From Pseudogemmobacter hezensis (GTDB taxonomy: Bacteria > Pseudomonadota > Alphaproteobacteria > Rhodobacterales > Rhodobacteraceae), in NCBI RefSeq assembly GCF_013155295.1, contig NZ_JABJXT010000029.1, positions 1,899-35,932 of the forward strand: a stretch of DNA of 34,034 nt. Reading direction: 5' to 3'. The position numbers and the translations under genes are program-made. The notes under the pieces were generated by a model. The model did no database searches. It had not been told where the DNA came from and was given only the letters and a program-made list of their open reading frames with translations. How positions within the stretch are numbered: the stretch's first letter is position 1; each line of letters starts with the position of its first letter. Positions 11,925 through 33,984 of the stretch are shown in pieces.

Positions 11925-12518
11925 ATGGACTATGCAGTCGAACAAATCGCCCGCCAGATCCAGGCCGCGCGGCAGGGCAAAGGCCTCAGCCAACGAGATC
12001 TGAGCGCCCTCTCGGGAATTTCCCAAGGGCGGATTTCGCGTATCGAAGCCGGTGACCTGGACCTGCGCCTGTCCAGTCTGACAGCTCTGGCCTCTGCTCT
12101 TGATCTTGAACTGGTATTGGCGCCGCGCAAAGCCATGCCAGCCATCCGCTCTCTGAGCGCCTCAGCCTTGCGGCAGAGCGGTGGCGATCTTGTTGATATC
12201 CGGCGTGCATTCGAGCAGCTTTCAGAGACCCTGCGCGGGCTGCAAATCCGGGAACCCGAATTGATGGGGCTGGAAGAGTTGCGCCGCGGGCTGAGTGACC
12301 TGCAACGACTTCCGGACAGTTCGATGGAAGTCTCTGAACTCCGCAAACTGCGCGCGCTGATCGAGCAAATTGGCGATCCGGCCCGTGCGAGACGCGCCCT
12401 CCCCCACAGCCTGGATCTGATGCGCGAGATCAGAAACCGAGAAACCCATGGACGACCGGGCGAAGATGCATCCCGGGAACCCCGGCCAGCATGGTCACTG
12501 GACGAGACCGATGACTGA
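11925..12518 (+). CDS. HipB-like XRE antitoxin with long C-terminal extension
   Basis: This 197-residue protein has an N-terminal XRE helix-turn-helix (about 10-62: QIQAARQGKGLSQRDLSALSGISQGRISRIEAGDLDLRLSSLTALASALDLEL). It is followed by about 130 residues that are helical, Leu/Arg/Glu rich and unlike the classical HipB, which is only about 90 residues. The extension may bind or mask the partner kinase. Its 3' end overlaps the hipA start by 8 bp (ATGACTGA), the normal arrangement of a hipBA operon. The expected role is to neutralise HipA and repress the operon through the dyads upstream. Confidence 0.85.
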   Translation: MDYAVEQIARQIQAARQGKGLSQRDLSALSGISQGRISRIEAGDLDLRLSSLTALASALDLELVLAPRKAMPAIRSLSASALRQSGGDLVDIRRAFEQLSETLRGLQIREPELMGLEELRRGLSDLQRLPDSSMEVSELRKLRALIEQIGDPARARRALPHSLDLMREIRNRETHGRPGEDASREPRPAWSLDETDD

Positions 12519-13749
12519 TCTGTCCATACTTGACGTCCGCCTGCACGGACGCAGCATCGGCACGATGACCTATATCGGTGGCGAACGGTCCCTGTTCGCC
12601 TTTTCCGGCGCCTATATCGCGGACCCGGCGCGCCCGACCCTCGGGCTGCGCTTCAAGGACAGGTTTGGAGATCTGATCACCGAGTTTCGTCCCTACAAGA
12701 TGAAACTCATGCCCTTCTTCTCCAACCTGCTGCCGGAGGGGCATCTGCGGCGCTATCTGGCGGAAAAAGCTCGCATTCACAGCGATCGCGAGTTCCTGCT
12801 CCTGCAGGCCCTCGGCAAGGACCTCCCCGGAGCGCTGACCGTCGAGGCCGTGGATGGCGCACTCTGGCCGCCGCAATATGATCCGGACAGTATCGAGGAC
12901 GGTAGAGCCGCCCGCGATGCAGCACAGAATGCGCTGCGCTTTTCTCTGGCGGGCGTCCAGTTGAAATTCTCGGCGGTGGCAGATGGCACGGGCCGCCTGA
13001 CGGTGCCTGCCCGTGGCGTCGGCGGTGACTGGATCGTCAAACTGCCATCTCGTGAGTTCCCCGGGGTGCCGGAGAACGAGTTCTCGATGATGACGCTCGC
13101 GAGGATGGTCGGCATTGATACCCCGGCTATCGATCTTGTGGATGTCGGGGCGATCTCGAACCTCCCCCCGGGCATGGAAAAGATCGGACCGAAGGCCTTC
13201 ATCATCGAGCGCTTTGACCGCAGGCGCGACGGGTCTTCAGTGCAGATCGAGGATTTCGCCCAGGTTTTCGACGTCTATCCCGACGACAAGTACAGGACCG
13301 CCAGCTATCGCAACATCGCGACCGTTCTCGCAGCTGAGGCAGGTCTGGCCGACTCTATGGAGTTCATCCGACGACTGACGTTCAACACGCTGATCGGCAA
13401 CGGTGACATGCACCTGAAGAACTGGTCGCTGATCTACCCGGATGACCGCAATGCCCGGCTCTCGCCCGCCTATGATCTGGTCTCGACCATCCCCTACATC
13501 CCCGGCGATCAGGCCGCACTGAACTTCAGCCGCAGCAGGGACTTTGCCGCGCTCACAACCGACGAGCTCGAGCATCTGTCGGCAAAAGCCGCCTTGCCAT
13601 CCAGATCCGTGCTGAACACGGCTCGGGAAACGGTTGCCCTGTTCATGGAGCGCTGGTCAGCCGAAAAGCTTCATCTGCCGATGGGATCGAAGGTCCGCAG
13701 GAGCATCGACGAGCACCTCCGCGGCCTGCCCATCATCACAGAACTTTAG
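12511..13749 (+). CDS. HipA-family serine/threonine kinase toxin
   Basis: This 412-residue HipA-like toxin kinase has an N-subdomain (SILDVRLHGRSIGTMTYIGGERSLFAF, then LPEGHLRRYLAE) and the SLAGVQLKFS loop at about 145-154, which corresponds to the autophosphorylated P-loop-like segment of HipA. VKLPS (K177) is the candidate ATP-binding lysine. The catalytic motif NGDMHLKN (297-304, with D299) and the metal-binding AYDLV (D322) are present, so it looks catalytically intact. In characterised HipA proteins the target is an aminoacyl-tRNA synthetase such as GltX; the target here is unknown. I chose ATG 12511, which overlaps hipB, over an upstream reading from 12448. Confidence 0.92.
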   Translation: MTDLSILDVRLHGRSIGTMTYIGGERSLFAFSGAYIADPARPTLGLRFKDRFGDLITEFRPYKMKLMPFFSNLLPEGHLRRYLAEKARIHSDREFLLLQALGKDLPGALTVEAVDGALWPPQYDPDSIEDGRAARDAAQNALRFSLAGVQLKFSAVADGTGRLTVPARGVGGDWIVKLPSREFPGVPENEFSMMTLARMVGIDTPAIDLVDVGAISNLPPGMEKIGPKAFIIERFDRRRDGSSVQIEDFAQVFDVYPDDKYRTASYRNIATVLAAEAGLADSMEFIRRLTFNTLIGNGDMHLKNWSLIYPDDRNARLSPAYDLVSTIPYIPGDQAALNFSRSRDFAALTTDELEHLSAKAALPSRSVLNTARETVALFMERWSAEKLHLPMGSKVRRSIDEHLRGLPIITEL

Positions 13750-21562: not shown

Positions 21563-22665
21563 GGCAAGCTCTCCCCGAGAGAGTTCAGGGGCGGCTTTTG
21601 CGCGTCAACACCTGTCGCGGTCCTGCTGACGGGCAGGTTTTCCACAGCAGGGATGCCCTCTTCAAAGGTTAGAGTCTTGTTAGACTCTAAGTTAGCAGCC
21701 GGATTCCCGCTTTCCGGCCAGAGGCTTAGCTGGGGGTTTTGCGTGTGATCTCCCGATACCCCTGCGTGTAATCTCCCGATACTCGTTGCGTGTGATCTCC
21801 CGTGTCCATGCACAGGTTGGTCCGCCCGATTTGTGGACAAATCCTGCACGACAATCCGCAGCAGTTCGCGGCGCCCGATCCGCTCGAGCGACAGCCGATA
21901 GCCCGGGATCGGTTGGCGCAGCACGATACGCCGGACCTGCAGCGCAAAGTCGGAGACCCGCGCCATACTGCCGGATTTTTCGTGAAGATGCGGAAGATCG
22001 AAAATCCAGCCATGGGCCTGACGACCGGCATGTTTGCGCGCCACACGGTAGAGCCAGCGCTCGATCCCGCCGGTCAGACGGAAATATGCCGGATCGATCC
22101 CAAGCACGAGCGACTGGTCGATGACGCCGCGATAGAACCAGTCCGGCAAAACCAGTTCCATCCCTGCGCTGCGGCCATCACGCAGGGTAAGCTCTTCCCA
22201 TTCATTGATCCAGGAAAACTGGTGCCGTCGCCATTGTTCGCCCTGACGGATCGTGGTCCGCACGGCCGTGGACTGCAGTCTGGTCAATGCACCGCGAAGC
22301 AGGCGGTAGTCACTCGCGCCAGTCTCGCGCCCCGTGGCGGTCAGGAGCTGGTAGGGCGTAAAGCGCAGAAAACGCGAGGTTGCCAGTCCGGCATCAATTG
22401 CATCGACGATCTGGCTGGCGGCCCAGATCAGGACGTCGGCATCCCAGATCGTTGCCATTCCATGTTCCGGTACCGCGTGCACCTCGACGCGGACATTACC
22501 CGATGCATAGCGGATCGGCGCGACGCGCCGGGTCTTCGCCAGAGAAAAGAAGGGGCGCTCCATCAGGTCGCGCTGATCGCGGGGCCGGATATCGCTGCCG
22601 GTGACGACAAAGGGCGTGAGATGTTGACGCTCGCCCGGATCTGCCCTGAGAACATGGCGCGTCAT
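21559..22665 (-). CDS. RepA-like replication initiator protein
   Basis: This 368-residue protein belongs to the plasmid replication initiator A type seen on alphaproteobacterial elements. Key segments are RDLMERPFFSLAKTRRVAPIRYASGNVRVEVHAV, the helical stretch ATIWDADVLIWAASQIVDA, RFTPYQLLTATGRETGASDYRLLRGALTRLQSTAVRTT and YFRLTGGIERWLYRVARKHAGRQ. These form winged-helix DNA-binding units. The conserved core ends near LRIVVQDLSTN; the remaining 95 residues are variable and their DNA holds three iteron-like repeats. On ICEs such proteins may support transient plasmid-like replication after excision. It is coupled by ATGA to the HTH gene upstream. Confidence 0.85.
   Translation of the reverse strand: MTRHVLRADPGERQHLTPFVVTGSDIRPRDQRDLMERPFFSLAKTRRVAPIRYASGNVRVEVHAVPEHGMATIWDADVLIWAASQIVDAIDAGLATSRFLRFTPYQLLTATGRETGASDYRLLRGALTRLQSTAVRTTIRQGEQWRRHQFSWINEWEELTLRDGRSAGMELVLPDWFYRGVIDQSLVLGIDPAYFRLTGGIERWLYRVARKHAGRQAHGWIFDLPHLHEKSGSMARVSDFALQVRRIVLRQPIPGYRLSLERIGRRELLRIVVQDLSTNRADQPVHGHGRSHATSIGRLHAGVSGDHTQNPQLSLWPESGNPAANLESNKTLTFEEGIPAVENLPVSRTATGVDAQKPPLNSLGESLP
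21741..21802. repeat. Three iteron-like direct repeats inside the repA-like gene
   Basis: GCGTGTGATCTCCCG at 21741-21755, GCGTGTAATCTCCCG at 21764-21778 and GCGTGTGATCTCCCG at 21788-21802 start 23 and 24 bp apart, about two helical turns. The first two share the extension ATAC. In the gene's own frame two repeats encode GR(S/L)HA but the third is read in another frame (SGDHTQ), so the conservation is in DNA and not in protein. This fits initiator binding sites (iterons) within or beside the initiator gene. Confidence 0.65.
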
Positions 22666-22955
22666 GCGCGACGTCCGTCCTGCAGGTCAGGTGCCGACAC
22701 CCTGTTCAACTGCGGATGGCGCTTCGCAGGCAGAACCCGGCCGCGCGGGTCTGAGGTCGAGGTGACATTCCCCCGCTGCGCCCAGGCCTGCAGATCATCG
22801 AAGGCGTAGACGACCCGCCCGCCCAGCTTGCAATAGGCCGGTCCAGTGCCGAAGCACCGATGCTTTTCCAGCGTCCTGCCGGAAAGCCCCAGAAAACGCG
22901 CAGCCTCGGGTGTGCGCAGAAAGCGCGGCGGCAGGTCGGAAAGGTCAGGCTTCAT
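22662..22955 (-). CDS. AlpA/MerR-like HTH protein, candidate recombination directionality factor (RdfS-like)
   Basis: This 97-residue protein starts MKPDLSDLPPRFLRTPEAARFLGLSGRTLEKHR, an excisionase-type winged HTH, and continues PAYCKLGGRVVYAFDDLQAWAQRG. The closing STSDPRGRVLPAKRHP is conserved in homologues on related elements as I recall them. It heads the repA-like/traF operon. In ICEMlSymR7A the gene in this kind of position, rdfS, encodes the factor that turns integration into excision and is switched on by FseA; equivalence here is inference. The ATG at 22955 has GGAG 8 bp upstream. A longer reading from 23006 is not needed. Confidence 0.82.
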   Translation of the reverse strand: MKPDLSDLPPRFLRTPEAARFLGLSGRTLEKHRCFGTGPAYCKLGGRVVYAFDDLQAWAQRGNVTSTSDPRGRVLPAKRHPQLNRVSAPDLQDGRRA

Positions 22956-23037: not shown

Positions 23038-23074
23038 GGGAGTGCGAATCTTCACGGCGTGAATTCGCACTCCC
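23038..23074. promoter_or_regulatory. Long inverted repeat upstream of the RdfS-like gene
   Basis: GGGAGTGCGAA (23038-23048) pairs perfectly with TTCGCACTCCC (23064-23074). Inside, TTCAC (23051-23055) pairs with GTGAA (23059-23063), leaving only a 2-nt bulge and a GGC loop. It lies 20 bp behind the DUF2285 gene stop and 83-119 bp upstream of the RdfS-like start. It could be an activator-binding site for that promoter or a terminator of the gene before it; no T-run follows on the minus strand, which favours the first. Confidence 0.6.
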
Positions 23075-23093: not shown

Positions 23094-23723
23094 CTAACGT
23101 TCGGGAAACCTTTGCAGGAGATCACGATAGCCGCCATTGACCAGCTTCATGCCGTCGCGCACGAGAGCAAGGGTCGCGTCACGGAGTGCCGAACTCTTCC
23201 AGGGATCGCTGGCGACCCGCCCCTTGCCAAAAAGAGCTTCGGCAATCTGACGGTAGCTCGCGCCTGCTTGCCGGGCGTCAATGGCCTGCAACATGTGACG
23301 GTAGCGACGGCTTTGTTGCCGCGTTGGCTGACGCGTCATTGGGCGGCGGCGGCTGAAGGTCGCTTCGAGCAGGTTTCTGGCTGCGCGCAGGCGCTGGATC
23401 CCATGTCGTGCATAGGGCGTCACTATGACCAGAGGCTGGTCTGGAGATGCCCCCTCGAGCAGGAGGGCATCAAGCCCGGTGCTACGCCCTTCGACAATCA
23501 TATGCCGACGGTATTCCCCTGCCCTGCCACGACGGCGACTTCTCGGCAGGCCGAGCCGACGCAACGCGCCGGCCTCGGCGGCGAGAATGCTCGGCGCAGG
23601 CGCAAGAACCACTGTGCCCGCATCGTCCGCAGGCTGCCAGAACAGCGTGGCCTGCTGTGGGGATAAGGCGGGATCGACCAGGAAAGGACAACCTCCAGCG
23701 TTCGGCAACCTCGTCGGCATCAT
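23094..23723 (-). CDS. DUF2285 half of a frameshift-split FseA-like activator
   Basis: This frame encodes the C-terminal part of a DUF6499-DUF2285 protein. It starts GCPFLVDPALSPQQATLFWQPADDAGTVVLAP, continues through a basic middle (RRLGLPRSRRRGRAGEYRRH) and ends with the DUF2285 HTH-like domain RRYRHMLQAIDARQAGASYRQIAEALFG to GYRDLLQRFPER. DUF2285 is an extended-turn HTH that binds DNA in FseA of ICEMlSymR7A. An ATGATG at 23723 could start it alone, but GCPFLVDP follows naturally on the upstream frame's DEVAERW after a +1 shift at 23694. The expected full protein of about 260 residues would run from 23871 to 23094. Confidence 0.82.
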   Translation of the reverse strand: MMPTRLPNAGGCPFLVDPALSPQQATLFWQPADDAGTVVLAPAPSILAAEAGALRRLGLPRSRRRGRAGEYRRHMIVEGRSTGLDALLLEGASPDQPLVIVTPYARHGIQRLRAARNLLEATFSRRRPMTRQPTRQQSRRYRHMLQAIDARQAGASYRQIAEALFGKGRVASDPWKSSALRDATLALVRDGMKLVNGGYRDLLQRFPER

Positions 23724-23871
23724 CGGGATTTCCCGATGCCATGGCCTCGTTGTAGTCGCGGCGATAATCTGCGTTCCGGCGCAGAAACTCCCAACAGAAT
23801 TCCGGGATCGTCAGAGCATCAAGATAAGCATAGGGTCCTGCCGCCGGTGCAGCATTTTGATGCGATTCCAT
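23482..23871 (-). CDS. DUF6499 half of a frameshift-split FseA-like activator
   Basis: The ATG at 23871 has a strong ribosome-binding site (GGAGGAAGG). The first 59 residues contain AYLDALTIPEFCWEFLRRNADYRRDYNEAM, the DUF6499 pattern, up to DEVAERW. After that the zero frame gives non-family residues and stops at 23482 (129 residues in total). A +1 shift at TGG-A-GG joins it to the DUF2285 frame. In FseA the DUF6499 domain contacts DUF2285 and is the target of the anti-activator QseM. Without the shift, the product is a short DUF6499 protein with an unrelated tail. Confidence 0.8.
   Translation of the reverse strand: MESHQNAAPAAGPYAYLDALTIPEFCWEFLRRNADYRRDYNEAMASGNPDDADEVAERWRLSFPGRSRLIPTAGHAVLAACGRCGHSGSCACAEHSRRRGRRVASARPAEKSPSWQGRGIPSAYDCRRA
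23688..23700 (-). other. Candidate +1 frameshift site joining DUF6499 and DUF2285
   Basis: Read on the minus strand the sequence is CGC TGG AGG TTG TCC in the upstream frame. Skipping the A at 23694 gives CGC TGG GGT TGT CCT (RWGCP), which restores family sequence on both sides. The AGG codon in the A site is rare in many bacteria and could promote slippage after TGG. It could instead be a one-base insertion that kills the gene; both halves otherwise look well preserved. Confidence 0.6.
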
Positions 23872-23987
23872 ACCTTCCTCCTCTCATCACTGCGGCAGTT
23901 CATTGCCGCAATGGTGAATCTTTCAGTGAGGAATCATTGCTGGAAGTCCTCCCTCAGGCACAGGGATGTTCCAGGGCTGCACCACAG

Positions 23988-24296
23988 TCACGACCGGACC
24001 GATGCTGCCTCGTTCAACAATAGGCGATAGCCAGTCGTACTCATCCAGTGCGCCCGTGACAGATGCGTCTCATGCATCATGCGTGCACGCTCGGGCTCGC
24101 GCTCTACCTCGACGTGGAGAAAGTGTCTTGCCACCTCCTGCCATGCCACCCCCGCTTCTTCTGAATCGAGCAGGCAGAGATAGAGTTGCAGGTTCTGCCG
24201 ATCATAGTCGGTCAGGCCATCCTCAAACGGTGCCGTGTCCCAAAAAACAGATCCTTTCACACTTGCGCTCCGAAACGCTGGAAAATTGAACAGCAA
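23988..24296 (-). CDS. Stand-alone DUF2285 protein, QseM-like anti-activator candidate
   Basis: This 102-residue protein contains FWDTAPFEDGLTDYDRQNLQLYLCLLDSEEAGVAWQEVARHFLH and EPERARMMHETHLSRAHWMSTTGYRLLL. It lines up by pattern with the end of the 23094 gene (Y..ml.a.D...aG....ia to GYR.LL), so it is a second DUF2285 domain. It is rich in Asp/Glu and lacks DUF6499. QseM of ICEMlSymR7A is such an acidic single-domain protein that binds the FseA DUF6499 domain and blocks activation. The start is a TTG at 24296; a GTG at residue 13 behind CGGAG is an alternative. The gene lies 116 bp upstream of the FseA-like gene on the same strand. Confidence 0.8.
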   Translation of the reverse strand: MLFNFPAFRSASVKGSVFWDTAPFEDGLTDYDRQNLQLYLCLLDSEEAGVAWQEVARHFLHVEVEREPERARMMHETHLSRAHWMSTTGYRLLLNEAASVRS

Positions 24297-24366: not shown

Positions 24367-24615
24367 TCAGCGCTTTTTGTCAGGCCTCGAGATCCGTCCG
24401 GCATCGATCATAACTCCAACATGGCCCGAACTGATAAAGATGATACCCGCCTCCTCGAGCGCCCGGCGCACCTGGTCTGCGGTGCTGTCGTAAACACGCA
24501 GGCCCCGCTCAAGCCGCTTCAGCGCGGTGAGAGAAACCATGGCCTTGTCTGCGAGCGCCTCCTGTGTCCAGGTGAGCATTGCGCGCGCGGCCCTTATCTG
24601 TTGGGCGGTGATCAT
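24367..24615 (-). CDS. Small XRE-family regulator (QseC-like position)
   Basis: This 82-residue protein is little more than an XRE helix-turn-helix, MITAQQIRAARAMLTWTQEALADKAMVSLTALKRLERG. It ends with a conserved-looking tail, VRRALEEAGIIFISSGHVGVMIDAG, common in small phage and ICE repressors. It lies 70 bp upstream of the QseM-like gene, with a 25-bp dyad over its promoter. In ICEMlSymR7A the XRE protein QseC controls qseM; the same role is possible here. Start at ATG 24615. Confidence 0.85.
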   Translation of the reverse strand: MITAQQIRAARAMLTWTQEALADKAMVSLTALKRLERGLRVYDSTADQVRRALEEAGIIFISSGHVGVMIDAGRISRPDKKR

Positions 24616-28832: not shown

Positions 28833-29731
28833 GCGGGAAACCTCTTTGGAACCCGGTGCAATTTGACGACTTTTACCCGGATTACCGCAAAAGGTCGATA
28901 CTCGGCATTCTGGATTGCATAAGGAACGGCAAAGTACCGTTCACCGACACACCCTAGCGTGTCATGGATAGCATGACTTCTGCGACTATGCCCACTGAAC
29001 CTCTATCCCGAGTGGCCTGATCCTGCCGAGCACACTCCTTGAGGCCGCACCTACGGAGCAGGCCTTTGCTCAGCGAGCCTTCGTAGTACAGCGCCGCAAC
29101 GGCATCATGCTTGAACGGTAAAAAGTGTTCGCGACCTACCGAAAGCCCCGCGAGTTCACCCTGCCCCCCCGGTGCGCAGTTCGGGTGTCGGTGATCGATG
29201 ATGGAGTTCATCGCCCCTACCATGTGGCAACGGGAGTGCGACCTCCCACCCACCCAAGCTGGCGAGTTCGCGCGACAGGTCGGTGATTTGATGCACAACC
29301 AGATGCACCACCTCACCATAGCACCTTGCCCTGCGTCCGCGCGGCGATCGGGACGATCCCCCCGGCGGCGAAACAGGCCGCTGTTGCCCAGTCTGCCGCG
29401 CCATTGCCGCCGCCCGCGACCTCATGCTGGTAACCAAGCGCCAACCCGCCGCCCGGCCAAGCGATGGAAGGTCGAAAGGAGCATATCCCGCGTACGCGCG
29501 CCTTCTCCCTCGAGTTGCGAGACGCACGCGCGGAGGGTAGCTTTGGCCTGACTGATGGCGCGCTCGTGCATCTTGAGGGAAGGCTCCGGGTCTTTCCAAG
29601 GGCCAATCCCCTTGTTATATTCCCTATTTGTTCTCATGCGATCCGCGAGCGAATCTGAGCTCCGAAAGATGTGGTCGGAAGCCTCGCCGAAGGTTCTGGC
29701 AAATGGTGAACGTACAACCGGAGAAGCGGCT
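28833..29731. other. Region without a convincing gene; probably decayed coding DNA
   Basis: No frame of normal family character spans this interval. Minus-strand pieces in different frames, such as 29422-29637 (KMHERAISQAKATLRACVSQLEGEG in residues) and 29156-29319 (GEVVHLVVHQITDLSRELASL), look partly protein-like but do not join without several shifts. This suggests a degraded gene. The plus strand from 29610 holds the upstream region of the SRAP gene. Confidence 0.4.
29619..29633 (+). promoter_or_regulatory. Possible LexA box upstream of SRAP-dinB genes
   Basis: ATTC-N7-GTTC occurs here. The alphaproteobacterial LexA site is the direct repeat GTTC-N7-GTTC, so this has one mismatch in the first half. 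It lies about 100 bp upstream of two DNA-damage-related genes (SRAP and Pol IV). The spacing is correct, but chance occurrence is not negligible. Confidence 0.35.
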
Positions 29732-30292
29732 TTGTGTAATCTCTACCACCTGACGACCAACCAGCAGGCGATCCGGGACATCTTGACGCTTACCCACGAA
29801 AGCATCGGCAACCTCGAACCTTCGCTCGACGCCTATCCCGACCGACCTGCGCCGGTGGTGCGCAACACATGGATACGCCATTGGCAGCAGTGGCTGGGTG
29901 TCGAGCACCGTTGCGTCCTCCCAGCGACGGCCTTCTCCGAATATGGGCAGGCGCATGATCCGGCGATGAAGCGCAAACCCCTCTACTGGTTCGCGCGTGA
30001 CCAGACGCACCCGCTGTTCTTCTTCACCGGGATCTGGACACAATGGGAGGGCACCCGCGGATCGAACCGCACACCGAGGCCGGGCCAGCATGAGTTGTTC
30101 GCGTTCCTCACCACGGCCCCCAACGCTCTGGTGAAACCGGTCCATCCGAAAGCCATGCCGGTGGTTCTCACCACCCGGGAGGAAGTGGAGGTGTGGCTGA
30201 CAGCCGACTGGCGACAGGCAAAGGCCCTGCAACGCTCCCTCGATGACGACCTGCTTGAACTCGTCGAGAGACCGGTACCTCTGGCTGGCTGA
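29732..30292 (+). CDS. SRAP-family protein (YedK/HMCES type), TTG start
   Basis: SRAP proteins form a covalent thiazolidine bond with abasic sites in single-stranded DNA and protect them. The 186-residue reading starts at TTG 29732, giving Met-Cys-Asn-Leu-Tyr, so that after Met removal the catalytic Cys2 is N-terminal as the family requires. GGAG lies 8 bp upstream. The other active-site residues are seen: Glu70 in CVLPATAFSEYG and His138 in VKPVHPKAMPVVL. An open frame extends upstream to 29555 but would bury Cys2, so I reject it. The gene is 9 bp before the Pol IV gene. It could protect transferred single strands or act in SOS. Confidence 0.9.
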   Translation: MCNLYHLTTNQQAIRDILTLTHESIGNLEPSLDAYPDRPAPVVRNTWIRHWQQWLGVEHRCVLPATAFSEYGQAHDPAMKRKPLYWFARDQTHPLFFFTGIWTQWEGTRGSNRTPRPGQHELFAFLTTAPNALVKPVHPKAMPVVLTTREEVEVWLTADWRQAKALQRSLDDDLLELVERPVPLAG

Positions 30293-30301
30293 GTATCATC
30301 A

Positions 30302-31429
30302 ATGTCAGGGCAGGCGGAACAGATCAGGGAGCGAGATGAACCGGCTGGAACGGCCCGCAAGATCATCCATGTCGACATGGATGCGTTCTATGCCTCGGTC
30401 GAACAGCGCGACAACCCCGAACTCCGAGGCAAGCCGGTCGCGGTTGGCGGCTCAGCCGCGCGCGGTGTAGTGGCGGCCGCCAGCTACGAGGCGCGCACTT
30501 TTGGAGTGCGCTCGGCCCTGCCTTCGGTCACCGCGAAGCGTCGCTGTCCCGATCTGATCTTCGTGAAGCCGCGCTTCGAGGTCTACCGCTCAGTGTCGGC
30601 GCAGATCCGCGAGATCTTCGCGGAACATACCGATCTGATCGAGCCGCTGTCACTGGATGAAGCCTACCTCGATGTCACCGAGAACAAGCAGGGCATTCCC
30701 ATCGCGACTGAGGTGGCGAAGGTCATCCGGGACCGGATAAAAGCGGTCACCGGGCTCAATGCCTCGGCCGGGATCAGCTACTGCAAGTTCCTCGCCAAAA
30801 TGGCGAGCGATCTGAACAAGCCCAACGGCCAAGCGGTGATCACGCCGGCACGCGGGCCGCAGTTCGTGGCCGATCTGCCCGTGAAGAAGTTCCATGGTGT
30901 CGGCCCCGCGACGGCGGCCAGGATGGAACGCCTCGGCATCCTGACCGGCACCGATCTGCGAGAGAAATCGGCCGAGTTCCTGCGGGAGCATTTCGGGAAG
31001 TCGGGCGGCTGGTATTACCGGATTTCGCGAGGGATCGACAATCGTCCGGTAGAACCGCATCGGGAACGCAAATCGATAGGGGCGGAGGATACCTTCAGCG
31101 AAGACATCACGAACCTTGAACCGACGCTGCGGGAAATCCGGATGCTGGCCGACAAGGTCTGGCGCAGTTGCAAGGCCAAGGACCTTACGGGGCGCACCGT
31201 GACGCTCAAAGTCAAGTACGCCGATTTCCAGCAGATCACGCGCAGCCGCACTATCGAGCACGGAATGCGGGGCGCAGAGGAACTCTCGGCAATCGCTTCG
31301 GCCCTTCTGGAGCCACTTTCGCCATTTGCGAAGGGTGTGCGGCTTCTCGGGGTGACGCTATCCTCGCTGGAACTAGACATCGGCGAGTCTATCGAACAGC
31401 AACTCAGCCTCGGCTTTCCGGGCCTGTAG
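30302..31429 (+). CDS. dinB: DNA polymerase IV (Y-family translesion polymerase)
   Basis: This 375-residue translesion polymerase has catalytic acidic residues in HVDMDAFYASVEQ (Asp25) and LSLDEAYLDV (Asp119, Glu120). The palm/finger segment YEARTFGVRSALP, the thumb (VKKFHGVGPATAARMERLGI) and the little-finger domain after DRKSIG-like ERKSIGAEDTFSEDI are all present. The tail QQLSLGF is a beta-clamp-binding motif. It appears intact, and is probably co-transcribed with the SRAP gene. A copy on a mobile element may raise mutagenesis or help replicate transferred DNA. Confidence 0.95.
   Translation: MSGQAEQIRERDEPAGTARKIIHVDMDAFYASVEQRDNPELRGKPVAVGGSAARGVVAAASYEARTFGVRSALPSVTAKRRCPDLIFVKPRFEVYRSVSAQIREIFAEHTDLIEPLSLDEAYLDVTENKQGIPIATEVAKVIRDRIKAVTGLNASAGISYCKFLAKMASDLNKPNGQAVITPARGPQFVADLPVKKFHGVGPATAARMERLGILTGTDLREKSAEFLREHFGKSGGWYYRISRGIDNRPVEPHRERKSIGAEDTFSEDITNLEPTLREIRMLADKVWRSCKAKDLTGRTVTLKVKYADFQQITRSRTIEHGMRGAEELSAIASALLEPLSPFAKGVRLLGVTLSSLELDIGESIEQQLSLGFPGL

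Positions 31430-32289: not shown

Positions 32290-33984
<1,695 letters not shown>

Follow-up and report, generated by a model that had tools for sequence, protein, structure and literature searches.

An FseA-like activator gene of a conjugative element in Pseudogemmobacter hezensis with a conserved, very probably programmed +1 frameshift

The window analyzed here, 34,034 nucleotides of contig NZ_JABJXT010000029.1 from Pseudogemmobacter hezensis, is part of a conjugative element. It encodes TrbI, CagX/TrbG, VirB8, TrbL, TrbK, a TrbC pilin, a T2SSE ATPase, and a TraG-type coupling protein, together with a DUF3363 relaxase (569 bits against the RlxS model, under the cut-off of 850), a transglycosylase, DUF736 and DUF2840 proteins, an S26 peptidase, and RepA. 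The first-pass annotation had described the element as one of different gene content, which is wrong for the stretch around the gene studied here, the same order (lone DUF2285, DUF6499, DUF2285, HTH, RepA, DUF2840, S26 peptidase, DUF736, and transglycosylase) being found on a plasmid of Paracoccus saliphilus. The trb genes are separated from the coupling-protein gene by a HipB/HipA-like pair on the opposite, plus strand (11925–13749); PADLOC gave no defence match for seven of the eight window proteins queried and a weak PDC-M03A match for the HipA-like protein. Also on the plus strand, an SRAP-domain protein and, after it, an ImpB/MucB-type DNA polymerase (29555–31429) may form an SOS cassette on the element, and within 32290–33984 the gene of a large serine recombinase overlaps with its end a tRNA-Met gene (33908–33984, minus strand). 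The 39 bases at 33882–33920 are repeated at G000:C7:89-127 and are a candidate attachment site.

The features of the FseA-like gene and its neighbours are collected in Table 1. A DUF6499 ORF with a strong ribosome-binding site and a DUF2285 ORF, overlapping in different frames, had been noticed in the first pass, and both are real: they match PF20109 and PF10074 on the minus strand, AGGAGG precedes ATG 23871, and a single +1 step joins the two frames into a product of 258 residues, the DUF2285 frame being usable from about 23681 after the predicted slip. The characters by which FseA is recognized are present in the sequence, namely an N-terminal DUF6499 with an AWEFLRRN-like motif, a C-terminal DUF2285, and two ORFs in +1 relation with the conserved TGG-N9-TTT-C. 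An inverted repeat, TGCGGCA-N6-TGCCGCA (23891–23910, minus strand), lies just 5' of the ribosome-binding site and is a possible operator. A second +1-arranged pair occurs in the host genome, on contig C7 (L004).

Table 1. Features of the FseA-like gene and its neighbourhood (window positions).
Feature	Position	Strand	Evidence or remark
0-frame ORF, DUF6499 (PF20109, E 3.2e-17), CWEFLRRN motif, 129 aa	23871–23482	minus	start of FseA-like gene
+1-frame ORF, DUF2285 (PF10074, E 9.9e-30), 209 aa from own ATG	23723–23094	minus	
AGGAGG ribosome-binding site of 0-frame ORF (ATG 23871)	23877–23882	minus	sequence
Shine-Dalgarno-like TGGAGG (family mostly TGGGGG), six bases before slip codon	23692–23697	minus	
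Predicted +1 slip site TTT-C	23682–23685	minus	TTT in 159/159, stops in both frames of relatives
Candidate FseA box TGCGAA-N15-TTCGCA	23043–23069		6/6 matching, within palindrome 23038–23074
RdfS-like HTH_17 protein, candidate target gene, start ATG 22955	22662–22955	minus	PDB 8dgl (RdfS), E 6.2e-9
Lone DUF2285, QseM-like candidate antiactivator	23988–24296	minus	PDB 7uqt (QseM), E 7.9e-16
Small XRE-type HTH protein, position of QseC/RihR-type regulators	24367–24615	minus	PF01381, E 5e-7

Judged by their sequences, the neighbours (QseM-like, RdfS-like, RlxS-like relaxase, and trb genes) fit the circuit known from ICEMlSymR7A of Mesorhizobium. The QseM-like gene has a listed start at TTG 24296, GTG 24260 being the likelier start by eye, and its product scores 22.1 bits with PF10074, under the cut-off of 26.4. 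It is a lone acidic DUF2285 protein, with a net charge of -7 over its matched residues 19–93 versus +11 over residues 171–253 of the fused protein (the DUF2285 part of the activator), like the contrast between antiactivator and activator described in the part of PMC10359603 available to us. At the positions of QseM Asp31 and Arg28 it has Asp and Cys, respectively (with an inferred chain offset of 11); Arg28 has been linked to repression more than to binding in the same accessible text (PMC10359603). The RdfS-like gene lies upstream of the S26 peptidase and RlxS-like relaxase, the position expected of rdfS, and the palindrome between it and the FseA-like gene has a fold z of -3.03. In R7A, FseA binds an inverted repeat before rdfS with hexamers 15 or 16 bp apart (PMC10359603, accessible part), and the candidate box here has the same spacing. 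We searched promoters for such boxes (hexamers 15 or 16 bp apart, the right one starting TTC) with a pattern framed after viewing the alignment, dropping 5 of 41 rows (two repeats of the window gene and, by choice, L004, L066, and L029); at least five of the six positions matched in 6/36 promoters and at least four in 11/36, the mononucleotide-shuffle mean for at least five being 0.11 (maximum 2). Transcription of FseA in R7A is activated by TraR with AHL. No TraR gene was found on the window's contig, which ends at the window's end; the two Autoind_bind matches in the genome are both on other contigs.

Relatives were gathered by PF20109 searches that matched 5 of 13 genomes at the level of genus, 22 of 295 for the family, 47 of 390 for the order, 25 of 385 for the class, and 43 of 398 for the phylum, with overlapping draws. 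The best loci by match, at most 30 per genome search, were taken in, so distant members are under-sampled; further loci came from five plasmid records and from a scan retaining 80 named genome loci. Eight of the first 117 loci gave no DUF6499/DUF2285 pair, and leaving out two Brucella loci of the scan, two copies of the window gene, and sequence duplicates resulted in 178 distinct pairs. These comprised 162 pairs in +1 relation, 13 single ORFs, two in +2 relation, and one in the same frame with an intervening stop, a proportion of +1 pairs that is not a population frequency because the loci were mostly picked by DUF6499 match and as the best matches of each search. Among the loci examined, the +1 relation exceeds chance. 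For comparison, PMC10359603 counts, in its accessible part, 4709 FseA homologues, about 61% of them with two ORFs and a conserved +1 site. The relatives analyzed are not close ones: the first scan of genome contigs gave no close homologue of the window gene, the best near-full-length matches in a plasmid tblastn had about 40% identity to it, and a near DNA search with 6 kb around the gene returned 114 plasmid records, none covering 80% of the query.

The motif TGG-N9-TTT was found in 159/162 of the +1 genes. The slip codon was TTT at each of the 159 sites (TTC was accepted by the search and never seen), followed by C in 152 and T in seven. The exceptions are L038, L049, and L191, the +1-arranged L038 reading TGG-AGG-TTG-CGG-TGT-C, with TGT in place of TTT, and being possibly inactive. 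When TTTC was taken as a single signal word, the step fell at an earlier TTT-C in the WEFL of the window, so UUU-C alone is not the signal.

The comparison of homologues at the DNA level upheld the +1 relation proposed in the first pass and displaced the shift itself. It had been put at TGG-A-GG (23694), where a +1 step does restore an open frame in the window (product ERW-GCPFLVDP) with identical following residues, FLVDP. This is nevertheless very unlikely to be the place. Four +1 relatives (L047, L102, L173, and L178) have a +1-frame TGA between TGG and TTT, so a shift at TGG would terminate in them, and the single-ORF relatives have WGLR there: L111, L113, and L115 read RWGLRLLEDPAL at the junction and L110 has RWGLRSLEDPAL, the former having the same length and pattern as RWRLSF-LVDPAL of the window, i.e., the 0-frame reading up to the TTT that all sites share. 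Together with these four early +1 stops, a 0-frame stop at +21 from TGG in 9/159 loci places the slip at or near TTT; a shift position common to all members would be TTT or one of the next two codons. In the window the slip codon is at 23685–23683 and the next base, C, at 23682, some ten bases past the first proposal, TGGAGG being the Shine-Dalgarno-like element, and the predicted junction becomes ERWRLSF-LVDP. A 2015 PNAS paper on the R7A site is said to attribute slippage there to tRNA-Phe moving from UUU to UUC. The WGL adjoining the R7A site is encoded by an RBS-like UGGGGG (PMC10359603, in the part seen), which fits a 0-frame reading of WGL.

Slippage would be superfluous if the DUF2285 frame were translated from its own start and the halves cooperated as two separate proteins. 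The window has +1-frame ATG codons 5' of the slip (23723 and 23720), DUF6499 interacts with DUF2285 (PMC10359603, accessible text), and the Azorhizobium caulinodans pair rihF1b and rihF1a is described in the accessible part of PMC9601964 as lacking PRF, each member having its own start and stop codon. Against this, the 25 bases before ATG 23723 contain GGGA and no AGGAGG-like site, 88/159 relatives are without a +1-frame ATG, GTG, or TTG before the slip, and L209, from the genus of A. oxalatiphilum, reads TGG-GGA-CTT-CGA-TTT-C in +1 relation with no such start in the stretch from 176 bases upstream of TGG to 85 bases downstream of it. We regard two separate proteins as improbable, if somewhat less so than a shift at TGG. 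The least likely of the alternatives is an inactivating single-base change or a sequencing error in an ordinary one-ORF gene: 13/178 distinct pairs are single ORFs and some loci look decayed (L069, L092, and L095), but the +1 relation is common to 162/178 pairs and to 78/78 of the named genome loci examined, and the site is conserved at the codon level. A shift peculiar to this strain, amid close homologues all in a single frame, was thus the opposite of what these admittedly not close relatives display. The FseA-like identity and the programmed +1 frameshift proposed in the first pass are well supported by this comparison and match the family as published (PMC10359603, in the part available). 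We consider the frameshift real, conserved, and very probably programmed on the evidence of sequence, and the favored reading, to which we give a probability of roughly 0.85, is that of a transcriptional activator from the FseA family, made by a +1 slip at UUU-C and belonging to a conjugative element of ICEMlSym type.

The codons of the site are biased compared with the same genes elsewhere. In the first 90 sites, Phe is TTT in 90/90 (baseline 26.7%), Arg before the slip is CGA in 52/57 (9.1%), Gly is GGG in 63/88 (16.4%), and Leu is TTG or TTA in 59/82 (11.3%); the P values count related genes as independent and are indicative only. A bias of this kind among synonymous codons suggests that the RNA itself is under selection. 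The window site, UGG-AGG-UUG-UCC-UUU-C, departs from the GGG and CGA of most relatives in having AGG and UCC; AGG occurs in 2/159 sites and UCC in 4/159, both together only in the window, so that this site may work at a different or poor efficiency. The duplex of UGGAGG with the anti-Shine-Dalgarno sequence, at -10.0 kcal/mol, is slightly stronger than the family median of -9.1. Across 90 genes, downstream RNA structure showed no signal common to the family (mean z of -0.11, -0.16, and 0.02 in three stretches, control -0.55), the window's own values in the three stretches after the site being -0.82, -1.98, and 0.53.

In prfB, the Shine-Dalgarno sequence lies three bases before CUU-U, with a stop codon in the A site. 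The window shares with it an SD-like element upstream of the +1 slip codon but differs in that this element lies six bases before the slip, which is at UUU-C and has no adjacent stop codon. A speculative reading, less likely than not and more doubtful than the frameshift itself, is that the family has a +1 signal of its own kind, unlike that of prfB, with an SD-like element six bases before UUU-C, a strongly favored rare CGA directly preceding the slip codon, and no downstream RNA structure, of which the window would be a variant with UCC for CGA and a stronger SD-like element that retunes the frequency of donor cells. The influenza PA-X site UCC_UUU_CGU (PMC3498833, accessible part) shares seven bases with UCC_UUU_C of the window and the direction of the shift; it operates on eukaryotic ribosomes, and the resemblance does not imply common descent.

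The frames, the conserved site, the family identity, and the neighbours can thus be read from the DNA, and a plausible course of expression may be drawn on them. Ribosomes would initiate at ATG 23871, read the DUF6499 frame, and probably be slowed by the SD-like UGGAGG at UGG-AGG-UUG-UCC-UUU-C, where a fraction would slip +1 on UUU-C (tRNA-Phe moving from UUU to UUC) and complete the 258-residue protein in the DUF2285 frame; those that do not slip would yield a protein of 129 residues carrying the DUF6499 domain alone. Binding of the fused protein to the inverted repeat before the RdfS-like gene would turn on excision and transfer, and the adjacent QseM-like protein would counteract the fused protein by binding the DUF6499 domain. 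The slippage with its efficiency, DNA binding, antiactivation, and the effect on transfer are all modelled here on the R7A system. A structural model of the fused protein has pLDDT 86.9 and pTM 0.84, with pLDDT values of about 95 in the segments flanking the junction. Its only PDB match at E ≤ 0.001 is RovC (6xz5; E 3.0e-6, TM 0.55/0.65), a loose superposition (rmsd 7.3, 17% identity) accompanied by a sequence match over residues 187–251 (E 1.2e-5). RovC of Yersinia differs in its role, regulating a type VI secretion system according to the accessible part of PMC10359603.

Among the closest described counterparts is R7A FseA (msi172-msi171), as presented in the available text of PMC10359603. 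It too is encoded by two ORFs, the first for DUF6499 and the second for DUF2285, which are joined by a +1 frameshift after W-G-L with an adjoining RBS-like UGGGGG, and it is accompanied by a QseM antiactivator and an rdfS target before traF and rlxS. Unlike R7A, the window has AGG and UCC at two usual codons of the site, and its rdfS-like gene is separated from traF by RepA and DUF2840, an arrangement shared with non-symbiotic ICEs (PMC8627217, part seen). ICEAc of Azorhizobium caulinodans carries homologues of the same four genes (rihF1b/rihF1a, rihF2, and rihR), i.e., a DUF6499/DUF2285 pair, a further R7A-like gene, and an XRE-family regulator; neither rihF1 half alone restored transfer (PMC9601964, accessible part for both). 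Contrary to that source as far as accessible, frameshifting seems likely at L209, the locus from that genus, too.

What is described here is a known and widespread mechanism in a new family member, with the slip site corrected, so that a reporter or a proteomic search can aim at the correct peptide. A codon-by-codon description of the signal is added, including the preference for CGA before the slip codon, which may already be in print, and L209 puts in question the printed claim (PMC9601964, in the part available) that the Azorhizobium module is without frameshift. By analogy with R7A, the frameshift may limit donor formation in this element as well.
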